A stretch of DNA of 34,237 nucleotides from Gemmatimonadales bacterium. GTDB lineage: Bacteria; Gemmatimonadota; Gemmatimonadetes; Gemmatimonadales; GWC2-71-9. The position numbers and the translations under genes are program-made. Numbering within the stretch: the first letter of the stretch is position 1; every line of letters begins with the position of its first letter. The stretch covers positions 1 through 34,237 of the forward strand of contig JACDHV010000008.1 in the NCBI GenBank assembly GCA_013820855.1, read 5' to 3'. A model generated the notes under the pieces. That model was not told the DNA's origin, did not search any database, and saw nothing but the letters and a program-made list of their open reading frames with translations. Of this stretch, positions 8,691-28,527 are shown one piece after another.

Positions 8691-11600
8691 GTGATCCACT
8701 CCCCAATGAGCCTCTCACGGCGGCAATTTCTCAAGCGATCGGGCCTGTCGGCCGGCGGCGGCACCCTGGGCGGCCTCGTCGCGCTCGGGCTCGACCCCGA
8801 GCGGGCCCGCGCCGCCACGGTGCCCCTCGAGTGGAAGATCGAGCGGACCAAGGTCGTCCCCTCCATCTGTCCCTACTGCGCGGTGGGCTGCGGCCTGCTG
8901 CTCCACGTGCGCGACGGGAAGCTGGTGAACGTCGAGGGTAACCCCGACTCCCCCATCAATCGGGGCACGCTCTGCCCCAAGGGCGCGGCGAGCTACCAGC
9001 TCACGGTCAACCCCAACCGCCCGACCGGGTGCCTCTATCGCCGCCCCGGCGGCACCGAGTGGGAGCCGATCGAGCTGAACCGCGCCATGGACATGGTGGC
9101 CGAGCGGGTGAAGCGAACCCGCGACGCCACCTTTCGCCGCACCGCCACGGTGGAAGGCCGCGAAGTGACGGTGAACCACACGCTGGGCATCGGGTCCCTC
9201 GGCGGGGCCACGATGGACAACGAGTGGAATTACACGCAGGCGAAGATGTGGCGGGGGCTCGGCGGGGTCTTCCTCGAGAACCAGGCCCGAATATGACACT
9301 CCTCCACGGTCCCCGGTCTGGGGACGAGCTACGGTAGAGGCGGCGCGACGACGTTCCAGCAGGACCTGCAGAACTCGGACGCGATCGTGATCATGGGCTC
9401 CAACTTCGCCGAGTGCCACCCGGTGGGCTTCCGGTGGGCGATGAAGGCGAGGGAGCGCGGCTGCAAGTTGATCCACGTGGACCCGCGGTTCACGCGGACC
9501 AGCGCCATGTGCGACCTGCACGTGGCCCTCCGTGCGGGCACCGACATCGCGTTTCTCGGCGGGCTCGTCAACCACATCATCAGCCACGACCGCTGGTTCA
9601 AGGAGTACGTCCTCCATTACACCAACGCGGCCACCATCGTCGCCGAGACCTTCCAGGACACCGAGGACCTCGATGGGCTGTTCTCGGGATTCGACCCCGA
9701 GAGCCGGCGGTACGACACGAAAGTGTGGGCGTACGAGGGCACGGTGGCCGGCCAGCCGGAGCTGGACAAGAGCGCCAACCAGCCCCCCGCCAAGGAGGGG
9801 CAGCCGGGCGTGGATTTCCGGCGCATGCCGCCGCGCACGGATCCGACGCTCCAGCATCCCCGCTGCGTCTTCCAGATTCTGAAGCGGCACTACGCCCGAT
9901 ACACGCCGGAGATGGTGTCGCGGATCTGCGGCTGCAGCGAGGCGCAGTTCCTCCAGGTGGCGGAGGCGCTCTGCGACAACTCGGGGCGGGAGCGCACCTC
10001 GGCCTTCGTCTACGCGGTGGGCTGGACCCAGCACACCGTCGGGGTGCAGTACATCCGCACCGCGACCATCGTCCAGGCGCTCCTGGGTAACGTCGGCCGG
10101 CCCGGCGGCGGCATCCTGGCGCTCCGGGGTCACGCCACCATCCAGGGCTCGACCGACATCGCCACGCTCTACAATCTGCTGCCCGGCTATCTCCCCGCGC
10201 CCAGCGCACAGGTGCGGGCCCACGACACCCTCGAGGGGTGGCTGGCCAACGAGATGCCGACCACCGGCTGGTGGGCCAACGGCCGGAAGTACATGGTGTC
10301 GTTCCTCAAGGCCTGGTACGGCGCCGCGGCCACGGCCGAGAACGAGTGGGGCTATCAGTTCCTTCCCAAGAACGTGGGCGATCACTCCCACATGCCGATG
10401 TTCGTCGCCATGCACCAGCGGGTGCTGCGTGGGTTCATGGCGATGGGGCAGAACCCCGCCGTCGGCGGGCAGAACGCGGTGTTCCAGCGGGGGGCGATGG
10501 CGCAGCTCGAGTGGCTGGTGGTGAAGGACCTCTTCGTCACCGAAACGGCCGACTTCTGGAACGCGCCGGACGTCGAGGACCCGTCCGCGATCGGCACGGA
10601 GGTGTTCTTCTTCCCGTCGGCCTCGGTGCCCGAGATGGACGGGTCGTTCACCAACACCCAGCGGCTGGTGCAGTGGCACGAGAAGGCGATCGAGTCGCCG
10701 GGTGATTGCCGGAGCGACCTCTGGTTCACGCACCAGCTGGTGAAGCGGCTCAAGAAGCTCTACCAGGGCTCGACCAACCCCAACGACGCACCCTTCCTCG
10801 CGATGGAGTGGAACTTCGAGGAGGTGGACGGCGAAGCCTCGGCCGAGAGCGTGCTCCGCGAGATCAATGGATACACGCTGCCGGACCGGAAGCTGGTGAA
10901 GTCGTTCGGCGACCTGCGGGACGACGGCTCGACCGCCAGCGGTGCGTGGATCTACACCGGCATCTATCCCGAGGAAGGGCGGAACCTCGCCGCCGCCCGC
11001 GACGCCGACGAGTACGTCTCGCTCGGCTGGGCGTTCGCTTGGCCGGCCAATCGCCGCATCCTCTACAACCGGGCCAGCGCCGACCCGTCCGGTCGGCCGT
11101 GGTCCGACCGCAAGCGCTACGTCTGGTGGGACGACGGGCGGCGCGAGTGGGTGGGCTACGACGTGCCCGATTTCCCCAGCACCAAGCCGCCGACGGCGAA
11201 GGGCGTCTGGGCGAAGGGGGGGATGGACGCGCTCGACGGCGACGCGCCGTTCATCATGAAGCCCGACGGGAAAATCTGGCTCTACGTGCCGAGCGGCCTG
11301 GTGGATGGGCCGCTGCCGACCCACTACGAGCCCTGGGAATCGCCGGTCGACAACGCGCTGTACCCGAAGCACCCCCGCAACCCCGCGGCGAAGACGTTCA
11401 ACGTCGTCGGCAACCGCTACATCGACCCCGGTGACCCGGCGTTCCCGATCGTCATCTCGACCTACCGGCTCACCGAGCACCACCTGAGCGGGGCGATGAC
11501 CCGCTGGCTTCCGTGGCTGGCGTCTCTGATGCCCGAGCTCTTCATCGAGATCTCACCCGAGCTGGCGGGCGAGCGAGGCATCACGAACGCGGGGTGGGTC

Positions 11601-12026
11601 ACCGTGGCCACGCCCCGCGGCGCGGTCGAGTGCAAGGCGCTCGTCACCCGCCGGATGCGGCCGTTCCAGGTGATGGGGCGCACGGTGCACCAGGTCGGCA
11701 TGCCGTTCCACTGGGGATACCGCGGCGTGGTCACGGGCGGCGTCACCAACGAGCTGGCCGCGCTCGTGGCCGACCCCAACGTCACCATTCACGAGGCGAA
11801 GGTGTTCATGTGCCAGGTGGAGGCGGGCCGCAACGCCAAGGCGGTCCTCGCGCGCCTGGAGGATGCGCCCCGCCCGGTGCCCCATGTCGGCCGCCGCGAG
11901 CGACAGGCCGCCGAGGCCAACATCGATCGTGCGATCGAGCTGGCCGAGGCCGCCGGGAGCCCCGCCGAGATCCTGGTGGAGCCGCCCTTCCCGCTCGACC
12001 AGCCGCTCGGAGTCTATCATGGCTAA
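8691..12026 (+). CDS. fdnG: Formate dehydrogenase catalytic subunit, Tat-exported, selenocysteine-containing (in-frame TGA at 9294-9296)
   Basis: Twin-arginine signal SRRQFLKRSG (start 8691 or 8706); N-terminal 4Fe-4S motif CPYCAVGC...LCPKG; frame continues through TGA as ARI-U-HSSTVPGLGTSYGRGGATTFQQDLQNSDAIVIMGSNFAECHPVGF, the FdnG/FdhF active-site context; ORFs 8691..9296 and 9387..12026 are in the same frame. Confidence 0.95.
9294..9326 (+). promoter_or_regulatory. Bacterial SECIS element (UGA plus downstream hairpin)
   Basis: TGA CAC TCC TCC ACG GTC CCC GGT CTG GGG ACG: stem GTCCCC (9309-9314) / GGGGAC (9320-9325), loop GGTCT; the GGU CUG codons occupy the same offset from UGA as in the E. 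coli fdhF SECIS. Confidence 0.9.
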
Positions 12027-13011
12027 GGGGTTCTACACCGATACCACTATCTGCATCGGCTGCAAGGCGTGCCAGACGGCCTGTCACCAGTGGAACGAGC
12101 TGCCGGCGGTGAACGACGGCCAGGTGGAGCTCACCGGCAATTCCTACGACAATACCGGCCGACTGAGCGCGCTGGACTGGCGCCACGTGCGCTTCATCGA
12201 GCAGTTCCCCGAGGACCGCAGCCAGGACGGTTTTCTTCACGGCTCGCGCTGGCTGATGATGTCCGACGTCTGCAAGCACTGCGTGAAGGCCGGATGCCTC
12301 GAGGTGTGCCCGACCGGCGCGATCATCCGCACCGAGTTCGACAGCGTCTTCATCCAGCAGGACGTCTGCAACGGCTGCCGCGCGTGCATCGCCGCCTGCC
12401 CGTTCGGCGTGGTGGACGTGGGCCAGGACGGCAAGGCGCACAAGTGCACCCTCTGCTACGACCGGCTGCAGCACGGCATGGAGCCGGCCTGCGCCCAGGC
12501 CTGCCCGACGGACTCCATCCGCTTCGGCGAGGTGAGCGAGCTGATGGTGCTGGCCGACCAGCGGGTGGCCGATCTCCGCGCCGAAGGTGTGCCGGCGTAC
12601 GTGTACGGCAAGGAGGAGATCGTCGGCGGCCTGAATTGTTTCTTCCTGCTGGTGGACAAGCCCGAGGTGTACGGCATGCCGGCGGACCCCAGGCTGCCGT
12701 CGGACAACGTGCCCGAGGGTCTCGGCCTCAGCGCGCTGACGGCGGCCGTCGTGGCCGCCGGCAGCGTGGTCGCGTTCCGGAAGGAGCGGATGGACGGCAT
12801 GGGAGGTGAGCCGCCGCCCGACACCGGTCCCGACACCGTCCCCCACACCGGCCCCGGCGGCGGATCCCCGGGCGGAGGCGGCCCGCCGCCGGGCGTCGAT
12901 CTCGTGGCGTTCATGAGCGCAGTGCACGGTGCCAACGAAACGGCGCGGGGCCGCCGCGCCGAGCCCAAGGCAGAGGGCGGTTGTGGCGGCGCCTGTGGGT
13001 GCCACGCGTGA
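12019..13011 (+). CDS. fdnH: Formate dehydrogenase iron-sulfur (beta) subunit with C-terminal Gly/Pro linker and Cys-rich tail
   Basis: Four Cys clusters (CIGCKACQTAC; CKHCVKAGCLEVCP; CNGCRACIAACP; CTLCYDR...CAQACP); starts 8 nt inside the alpha-subunit gene (ATGGCTAA overlap); tail ends PKAEGGCGGACGCHA. Confidence 0.93.
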   Translation: MAKGFYTDTTICIGCKACQTACHQWNELPAVNDGQVELTGNSYDNTGRLSALDWRHVRFIEQFPEDRSQDGFLHGSRWLMMSDVCKHCVKAGCLEVCPTGAIIRTEFDSVFIQQDVCNGCRACIAACPFGVVDVGQDGKAHKCTLCYDRLQHGMEPACAQACPTDSIRFGEVSELMVLADQRVADLRAEGVPAYVYGKEEIVGGLNCFFLLVDKPEVYGMPADPRLPSDNVPEGLGLSALTAAVVAAGSVVAFRKERMDGMGGEPPPDTGPDTVPHTGPGGGSPGGGGPPPGVDLVAFMSAVHGANETARGRRAEPKAEGGCGGACGCHA

Positions 13012-13985
13012 GCGCCGAGCTCCTGGCGCAGGTGGCCACACCGGTCGTCGGCCACGGCTTCGCGCCCCACTGGGGCTGGTACATCGTCCTCTATTTCTTC
13101 TTCGGCGGGCTGTGTGCCGGCTCGTACTTCGTCGCCACCCTGCTGCTCCTCCTGGGCGATCCCCGCGACCGGGACACGATCCGGCTGGGGTACCTCATCT
13201 CCTTTCCGCTGCTGATCCTCTGCGCGATCCTGCTGATCCTCGATCTCGGCGTGCCGTCCCGCTTCTGGCACATGGTCTTCCAGAGCAAGAACGTCCCCGA
13301 GCTCATGTTCAAGCCCTGGTCGCCCATCTCGCTGGGTACCTGGATCCTCTCCGCGTTCGGGCTCTTCTCCTTCGTCGCGTTCCTGGGGGCGCTGGTGGAC
13401 AGCGGCCGGCTGCGCTGGGCCCCGGTGCTCCGCCTGGCGGACCGGGTGCGCGGCCTTCCTCGCCAGGCGGTCGTGGCCTGGAACGTCCTCGGCAGCTTCT
13501 TCGGCTTCGGGCTGGCGGGGTACACCGGTGTCCTGGTGACGGCCACGACCATTCCGGTTTGGCAGAACGCGCGCCTGCTGGGCGGACTCTTTCTCACATC
13601 GGCGGCGTCGGCCTCCTACGCGCTGCTCGTGCTGCTGCTTCTGCGGCGGGGGCGCGCGCACTCGGACCCCTCGGTCGCCAAGCTCGCCCGTGCCGATCGC
13701 TTCACGGTGGTGCTCGAGCTCCTGCTCATCGTCGTTCTGGTGCTCACGCTGGGCCAGGCCTCGCGGCCGATCACGACCGGGGGGTTCGGGGTGCTCTTCT
13801 GGCTCGGGGCCGTCGGCCTCGGCGTGGTGGCGCCCCTCCTGCTGCATCGGACGGCGCTCGGCGGATGGGACGCGCACCGCCGGGAGGTGATCGCGGCGGT
13901 GTGCGTGCTGGTGGGCGGACTCATCCTGCGATTCGTGGTGGTGATGTCGCCGCAGTACCCGATGGTGCCGCTGTGGGCGCTCTGA
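13008..13985 (+). CDS. nrfD: NrfD/PsrC-type polytopic membrane subunit (quinone-interacting anchor of the formate dehydrogenase)
   Basis: GTG start overlapping the upstream stop (GTGA); HWGWYIVLYFFFGGLCAGSYFVATLLLLLG and several further hydrophobic helices typical of NrfD. Confidence 0.87.
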   Translation: MSAELLAQVATPVVGHGFAPHWGWYIVLYFFFGGLCAGSYFVATLLLLLGDPRDRDTIRLGYLISFPLLILCAILLILDLGVPSRFWHMVFQSKNVPELMFKPWSPISLGTWILSAFGLFSFVAFLGALVDSGRLRWAPVLRLADRVRGLPRQAVVAWNVLGSFFGFGLAGYTGVLVTATTIPVWQNARLLGGLFLTSAASASYALLVLLLLRRGRAHSDPSVAKLARADRFTVVLELLLIVVLVLTLGQASRPITTGGFGVLFWLGAVGLGVVAPLLLHRTALGGWDAHRREVIAAVCVLVGGLILRFVVVMSPQYPMVPLWAL

Positions 13986-14305
13986 GCCGGACGGCGCTCC
14001 CGCTCGCCCTGCTGGCGGCGGCCGCCTGCTCGCCCGAAGCCCGCCGGGTCCGTGACGGCGGCCCCGGGGCTGATCCCGGGAACAAAGTGCTGGTCGAGCA
14101 CCGGCAACCCGAGCCTCGCGCGGCGGATACCACGCTGTGGCCGGGGCTCGCCCCCGCCCCGGTCGAGCGCTTCGCGGCAGGCGACCTGGCGCCGGCCACG
14201 TTTCCCGCCGCCCCCCGCGACCAGCCGCCCACGGGCGCGCAGCAACGAACCTTCGACAGCGATCCATCCGTGGATCCCCGCCTGCCCTCCGACCAGGCGC
14301 GCTAG
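13973..14305 (+). CDS. Small predicted lipoprotein of unknown function embedded in the fdh operon
   Basis: GTG start inside nrfD; VGALSRTALPLALLAAAACSPEARRVRDGGPG... signal/lipobox-like N-terminus; ends 1 nt before the fdhE start. Confidence 0.68.
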   Translation: MGALSRTALPLALLAAAACSPEARRVRDGGPGADPGNKVLVEHRQPEPRAADTTLWPGLAPAPVERFAAGDLAPATFPAAPRDQPPTGAQQRTFDSDPSVDPRLPSDQAR

Positions 14306-14306
14306 A

Positions 14307-15182
14307 GTGGCTCGCCTCGCCTCGCGCCCCGCCGATCCCGAGATGGCCCGGGCGAGCGAGGTCCTCGACGTCCTCGCGGAGGTCTGGCGTGATCTGTCGC
14401 CGGCGCTCCCGCCGGGCGTACCGGCAGTCGAGGCGGCCGAGGTGCGGCTCGAGGGCGGGGTGCCCGCGCTCGCGGGAGAGCCGCTGATCGGCGGCCCGGC
14501 GCTGGTCGCGGGCGTCCGGGAGATCGGGCGCCGGCTTCAGGCGATCGAGGGGTACGGCGCGGCAGGCGCGGTCTCCGACGCGGTCGCCCGCCGCTCATCA
14601 ACCTTCGATACCGAGCTGTTCGCGGCGGCTGCCCTCGGCGGCATGTGGGACGAGATGGCGTCGCTCGCCGACGGCCTGGAGCTGGATGCCCACGCGCTGA
14701 TCACCCTGGCGGATTACGCCGCGAGGCCGGCGCTCAGGGCCGGCGCCCTGGTGGTGAAGCCCCTGGTGACCGCGTCGCGATGGGGCCGCGGGACCTGCCC
14801 CTCCTGCGGTGCGCCGCCGGCGCTCTCGGTGCGGTCCGGCAAGGAGGGGGACCGCACCCTCTTCTGCCCGCGGTGCGGCACGGGATGGCGGTACCCGTGG
14901 GTGCGCTGCCCCGCGTGCGGCGAGGACGACCACCGGCGGCTCGGCGCGCTCCACGCGTCCGGTGAGGGCGACTTCCGGCGCGCCGACGTCTGCGACACCT
15001 GCCGGAGCTACGTCAAGAGCGTGGCCGCGCTGGACCCGCCGAATGCGGACGGCGTGCTGCGCCTCGATCTCGACACGGCCGCGCTCGATTTCGCCGCGAT
15101 CGAGCTCGGATATCATCGTGACGGCGTCCCCGACGATCGGGGTGGGCCGCGCGAGACGGGGCCGGTCGAACACCGTCGCTGA
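14307..15182 (+). CDS. fdhE: Formate dehydrogenase accessory protein FdhE
   Basis: Four CxxC motifs in FdhE arrangement (CPSCGAPPALSV, LFCPRCGTGWRYPWVRCPACGEDD, ADVCDTCRSYVKSV); operon context with fdh genes. Confidence 0.9.
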   Translation: MARLASRPADPEMARASEVLDVLAEVWRDLSPALPPGVPAVEAAEVRLEGGVPALAGEPLIGGPALVAGVREIGRRLQAIEGYGAAGAVSDAVARRSSTFDTELFAAAALGGMWDEMASLADGLELDAHALITLADYAARPALRAGALVVKPLVTASRWGRGTCPSCGAPPALSVRSGKEGDRTLFCPRCGTGWRYPWVRCPACGEDDHRRLGALHASGEGDFRRADVCDTCRSYVKSVAALDPPNADGVLRLDLDTAALDFAAIELGYHRDGVPDDRGGPRETGPVEHRR

Positions 15183-28013: not shown

Positions 28014-28093
28014 CGCAAGTCGAAGCAGGATTGTTCACCCAGGCTGCTCCACCCCTGGGGCCCGAAGGCTATGTCGTGTGTGTCAGAGCCGGC

Positions 28094-28306
28094 TTACTTG
28101 CCGACCTTGACGACGTTTTCCGCGGCCGGGCCCTTGGCGCCCTGAACCACGTCGAACTCCACCTTCTCGCCCTCGGCGAGGCTCTTGAAGCCCTGACCCG
28201 AGATGGCCGAGTGATGGACGAAGCAGTCCTTTTCGCCGTTTTCCGGGGTGATGAACCCGAAGCCCTTCGCGTCGTTGAACCACTTCACGGTGCCGGTGGT
28301 GCGCAT
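28094..28306 (-). CDS. cspA: Cold shock protein (CspA family)
   Basis: [73 protein letters not shown]1 and RNP2 present. Confidence 0.97.
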
Positions 28307-28411
28307 GCTGAGTATTCCTTTGTGTTCGTAATCGGGACTCGGCGTTCGCACGCGTACCGACTACCAGTTCGTCGTGATCGATGCCCTCACGCCGGGCTGC
28401 GACGGTGTACC

Positions 28412-28527
28412 AAGAAAAAGGGCCCCAGCGATGTCCGGGGGCCCTGAGCTCCTTGGATTTCGAATCGTGCCGAACCGGGCACGACCATCGCAGGCGGGAA
28501 TATAGCGACCGCGGGCTCTTCCTTCAA
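28412..28527 (-). ncRNA. Candidate ~80-nt small RNA or csp leader: promoter, hairpin and intrinsic terminator
   Basis: Minus strand: TTGAAG (28522-28527), 17-nt spacer, TATATT (28499-28504); hairpin TCGTGCC-N6-GGCACGA (28465-28484); terminator AGGGCCCC-N11-GGGGCCCT then TTTTCTT (28445 down to 28412). Confidence 0.5.

Follow-up and report, generated by a model that had tools for sequence, protein, structure and literature searches.

On the forward strand of the stretch of DNA analysed (34,237 nucleotides, hereafter the window), an ORF at 8691-9296 was found to be terminated by a TGA (9294-9296) and to share its frame with a second ORF at 9387-12026, with the 90 nt between them (9297-9386) being open. 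Reading through this codon from the GTG at 8691 yields a single protein of 1,111 residues, with the next stop being the TAA at 12024-12026. The initial annotation had described these ORFs as one split gene, and the shared frame, the open 90 nt and the read-through peptide it quoted were all reproduced exactly. Its division of an enzyme of approximately 1.1 kaa into pieces of 201 aa and 879 aa also stood, while its start at GTG 8691 was replaced. Translation most likely begins at ATG 8706, because the homology of most relatives begins at residues 6-8 and a twin-arginine signal (MSLSRRQFLKRSGL) lies downstream. The resulting gene, fdhA (8706-12026, forward strand), was assigned from profile matches and full-length relatives as encoding the alpha subunit of a Mo/W-bisPGD formate dehydrogenase (FDH) of 1,106 aa, in which the TGA is codon 197 (codon 202 when counted from GTG 8691). 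The twin-arginine (Tat) signal region (8706-8816, forward strand), with the motif RRQFLKRSGL, was read directly from the translation and suggests that FdhA would be exported to the periplasm. When the window was scanned for TGA codons at which the frame is open with coding-like GC3 on either side, 9294-9296 was the sole qualifying site, and no read-through TGA candidates were identified with this GC3 filter on the stretches of the four other contigs that carry selA, selB, selC and selD.

FdhA was found to score 1484 bits against NF041513 (cut-off 1400) and 1054.4 bits against TIGR01553, the formate dehydrogenase-N alpha model (curated cut-off 814.2). Its Pfam domains occur in the order Fe4S4 (PF04879, 76.8 bits), molybdopterin oxidoreductase (PF00384) and dinucleotide binding (PF01568), and the features by which formate dehydrogenase-N alpha is recognised, the active-site motif ARI-U-H and an N-terminal 4Fe-4S site (PF04879), were both present. 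Over its full length the protein is 75% identical to homologue L021 and 70% to L022, the only two to align with its C-terminal tail to the end, and in the tree it groups with the proteins of two Gemmatimonadota MAGs as a three-member clade. From its family membership, FdhA is predicted to have formate:acceptor oxidoreductase activity. The output of a standard ORF caller would instead give two separate proteins of 201 aa and 879 aa, with the second restarted at GTG 9387. However, this break would interrupt the molybdopterin domain at the residue that ligates the metal, with the PF00384 match spanning residues 166-685 across it, and the forms of the enzyme with cysteine at this site are single unbroken chains here, making two proteins highly improbable. 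The gene model, which the standard ORF track breaks precisely at the catalytic residue, was corrected accordingly.

Downstream of fdhA and on the same strand, fdhB (12019-13011) encodes a ferredoxin-type 4Fe-4S electron-transfer subunit (PF13247 and other Fer4 models), which scored 163 bits against the FDH-beta equivalog TIGR01582, under its cut-off of 334.7; this gene adjoins fdhA in relatives from other phyla too. It is followed by a gene for an NrfD/PsrC-type membrane anchor, the quinone-side subunit (12981-13985, start uncertain), identified by PF03916 (114 bits, cut-off 25.8) and its conserved position, and by a gene for an fdhE-like FDH accessory protein (14052-15182), identified by TIGR01562 (67 bits, below the cut-off of 188), PF24860 (28.0 bits, cut-off 27) and its conserved position. 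The true start of the latter is probably near 14340, and similarity begins at about residue 97-120. The order fdhA-fdhB-NrfD-like anchor-fdhE was found to be kept in Gemmatimonadota, Planctomycetota, Chloroflexota, Thermomicrobiales, Geomonas and Burkholderiales, among the loci that reach that far. Taken with the Tat signal, the operon would be that of a periplasmic-facing respiratory FDH passing electrons to quinone.

In comparison with E. coli FdnG (formate dehydrogenase-N alpha, a selenoprotein; PDB 1kqf), FdhA, which exceeds the TIGR01553 cut-off, is likewise a predicted Mo-bisMGD catalytic subunit, with an in-frame UGA before His in each (NQARV-U-HGPTV in FdnG, NQARI-U-HSSTV in the window). 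The operon differs from the FdnG system in having an NrfD-type anchor rather than the FdnI gamma subunit and in containing fdhE, and it was not classed as encoding an FdnGHI-type complex in view of this membrane subunit and the missed FDH-beta equivalog cut-off. The W-formate dehydrogenase of D. gigas and FdhAB of D. vulgaris are soluble periplasmic two-subunit enzymes. These were the best solved matches to FdhA (PDB 1h0h and 6sdr, respectively); unlike them, the window operon encodes an anchor, and its FdhA has an insert at about residues 360-381 in addition to the C-terminal tail. NF041513 and the NrfD-anchored relatives of Chloroflexota, Planctomycetota, Geomonas and Burkholderiales represent the same kind of enzyme, with the same operon order where it was read. 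These relatives share 51-60% identity with FdhA, and all of those covering the site have TGA except for L057.

Elsewhere in the window, a cspA-thermoregulator-like match (28064-28479, reverse strand) was obtained at 48.9 bits (gathering score 78). It overlaps a short coding-like frame (28094-28360) that is probably a cold-shock protein gene, and its score may therefore stem from the coding part.

The codon corresponding to the TGA was examined in relatives at 50 loci from species genomes, 46 of which cover it. TGA was found in 45 of the 46, with TGC in the remaining one (L057), and the phyla represented include Chloroflexota, Planctomycetota, Nitrospirota, Thermodesulfobacteriota, Pseudomonadota and Actinomycetota. 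In the set of Gemmatimonadota homologues read alongside these, TGA was present at the site throughout. In E. coli FdnG and FdhF, too, a TGA precedes the His codon at the equivalent position, and D. gigas FDH (1h0h) has a non-standard residue (X) in the same column, so that alignment bore out the proposed coincidence of the site with the selenocysteine (Sec) of known enzymes; 9294-9296 was annotated as a Sec codon (in-frame UGA, forward strand) from the TGA of relatives and from this alignment to the Sec of FdnG and FdhF. MAGs can hold single-base errors and TGC is the natural Cys alternative, meaning that the TGA might be a miscalled TGC or TGT, or else a nonsense mutation in a pseudogene. However, the same codon is TGA in independent assemblies from many phyla, the part 3' of it is wholly open with coding GC3, and the hairpin that follows is conserved; in practice this conservation refutes error or decay as an explanation, for which we retain only a minimal probability. 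A second Sec was also considered, many of the Gemmatimonadota homologues having two TGAs, and was rejected: in L090, L094 and L099, where alignments extended to the second TGA, it lies at position 1047, where homology ends on the C-terminal side, and is a real stop.

A bacterial SECIS element was identified directly at the codon (9294-9338, forward strand), with an apical hairpin at 9309-9325 and a GGUCU loop at 9315-9319. It matched Rfam SECIS_3 at 30.6 bits (E 0.004), under the gathering score of 63, and in a SECIS model search of the genome it was the only strong match (E 1e-10, versus 0.24 for the next), with no other convincing FDH-type SECIS being found by that search. Counting the UGA as +1, U lies at +17 and GGUCUG at +22 to +27, which is the spacing of E. 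coli fdhF; the register is the same as in the fdhF SECIS, but the stem of the window is GC-rich with a different sequence. Among 71 distinct TGA sequences compared, the Gly codon from +22 onward is GGT in 70 (AGT in the other) and the Leu codon ending at +27 is CTG in all 71. Within the N-terminal regions aligned from these genes, 13% of Gly codons are GGT and 44% of Leu codons are CTG, and in the window fdhA only 9 of 104 Gly codons are GGT. The GGUCUG loop is therefore nearly invariant at the DNA level, far beyond what codon usage would give. Compensatory changes were observed in the stem, where pair 18-30 is C-G in 51 sequences, G-C in 17 and U-A in one. The four inner pairs were formed in 280 of 284 cells, compared to a mean of 254 and a maximum of 267 in 2000 trials of within-column codon shuffling, a difference that is inflated by sequence kinship and is to be read as support rather than as a probability.

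The MAG to which the window belongs, as contig C89, comprises 3.49 Mb in 363 contigs and was estimated to be 94% complete and 0.5% contaminated. In this genome a tRNA-Sec was found on C117 (68.2 bits, cut-off 47; tRNA-SeC with anticodon TCA (UCA) by ARAGORN), selB on C7 (319.5 bits, both parts; cut-off 242), selA on C109 (524.7 bits, cut-off 268) and selD on C321 (380.9 bits, cut-off 125). The initial annotation had proposed a search of the genome for selA, selB, selD and selC, and all four were thus present above their family cut-offs. They lie on four separate contigs, none of which is that of the window, and in a MAG this fragmented their co-residence with fdhA depends on binning. The host was placed in Gemmatimonadota through the same-genus genome G049 and locus L042, which share an identical FDH row in the tree and one selA match at a single contig position. 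The binning of the window contig is supported by an SDR dehydrogenase (73% identity across an end piece of 55 residues) and by a PAS protein (64%), neighbours of the fdh genes that also sit on the contig of locus L042 in this congener. Across the genus sample, selA was identified in 9/9 genomes and tRNA-Sec in 8/9. Of the Trx7/PDZ (seleno)protein family, the genome gave partial matches only, below cut-off. The in-frame UGA with conserved flanks, the SECIS directly downstream and selA, selB, selC and selD, by which bacterial selenoprotein genes are recognised, were accordingly found together. The sequence taken alone would be compatible with the UGA being read as a residue other than Sec, such as Trp or, through a suppressor, Cys. 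Against this stand the complete Sec machinery, the SECIS in fdhF register and the failure to find the machinery where close homologues have TGC (described below), leaving readthrough with another residue very unlikely.

TGC was identified at the site in two congeneric genomes from the same order as the window, G033 (L109; 100% complete) and G313 (L110), and in the Chloroflexales MAG G398 (L057). Neither tRNA-Sec nor selB over cut-off was found in these three genomes; for selA, G398 gave no match, G033 was listed without one, and G313 was absent among the matches listed. The hairpin motif is altered in all three TGC homologues. The FDHs of G033 and G313 nest within a Gemmatimonadota TGA clade, for which reason Cys has most likely taken the place of Sec in them, and L057 is an independent case of Sec-to-Cys replacement in a genome where the machinery was not found. 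Of the genomes carrying the TGA form, 23 were tested, with tRNA-Sec present in 22 and selB over cut-off in 19. The exception for tRNA-Sec is the Chloroflexales genome G401 (L031), in which selB did not reach cut-off either and selA was limited to a fragment at the edge of a contig, probably owing to an incomplete MAG. Genomes G113, G204 and G310 have the TGA, tRNA-Sec and selB with no selA match, as expected from draft-genome gaps. Loss of the machinery is not a precondition for the Cys form: G234, in which selA and tRNA-Sec are present, has TGC in a distantly related FDH (46% identity, on a long branch).

The proposal that this catalytic subunit is a selenoprotein is supported by the decoding machinery, the conserved TGA, the SECIS and the joint occurrence of TGC with absent machinery. 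We consider it very probable (approximately 97%) that the locus encodes a Sec-containing, Tat-exported, membrane-bound respiratory FDH of a Gemmatimonadota bacterium, with UGA 9294 read as Sec. The gene, the UGA, the SECIS, the machinery and the operon were each established by computation. SelB with Sec-tRNA(Sec) would bind the hairpin just 3' of the UGA, leading to Sec insertion rather than termination, and selenium would thereby enter the active site, where Sec beside the active-site His is expected to ligate the metal of the bis-MGD cofactor, either Mo or W. Formate oxidation is the predicted physiological direction, with electrons passing from the 4Fe-4S cluster of FdhA, in a putative periplasmic location, to FdhB and then via the NrfD-like anchor to the pool of quinone as likely acceptor, while FdhE may aid maturation.

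Gemmatimonadota are poorly cultured and common in soil. The expectation that the Sec pathway would be encoded elsewhere in the genome was borne out, while the suggestion that the lineage is unusual for Sec was not, with Gemmatimonadota commonly decoding it. Among 395 sampled genomes of the phylum, selA was over cut-off in 280 and tRNA-Sec in 277 (approximately 70%), compared to matches to this FDH at E 1e-100 in 49 (12%), which indicates that Sec is widespread across Gemmatimonadota and has uses besides this FDH. In the genus of the window, this FDH was found in 5 of 9 genomes; four congeners (G066, G206, G231 and G384) have selA, three of them also with tRNA-Sec, and lack such an FDH, and probably contain other selenoproteins. 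Whether Gemmatimonadota are a largely Sec-decoding phylum with a selenoproteome that the papers searched do not describe and to which this FDH contributes only a part, most members using Sec in other, possibly undescribed proteins, is a proposition that we hold at even odds. The FDHs of the genus fall in four separate places in the tree (L107/L042, L085, L087 and L093, compared to that of the window), which suggests transfer or differential loss. On L042, the SDR and PAS neighbours of the window flank a different FDH, on its other side, suggesting exchange at the fdh locus.

A literature search returned nothing direct on Sec in Gemmatimonadota, and the phylum is not named in the main texts of PMC5029168, PMC9312934 and PMC5330540, a silence that is a weak sign of novelty. 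FDH alpha and SelD are described in the text of PMC5029168 as the two most widespread bacterial selenoproteins, and a selenoprotein FDH is for that reason ordinary in kind. For the organism, the locus extends the predicted capabilities of Gemmatimonadota to the oxidation of formate with a Sec enzyme, and for the family, the natural Sec-to-Cys swaps provide material on why Sec is kept or dropped.
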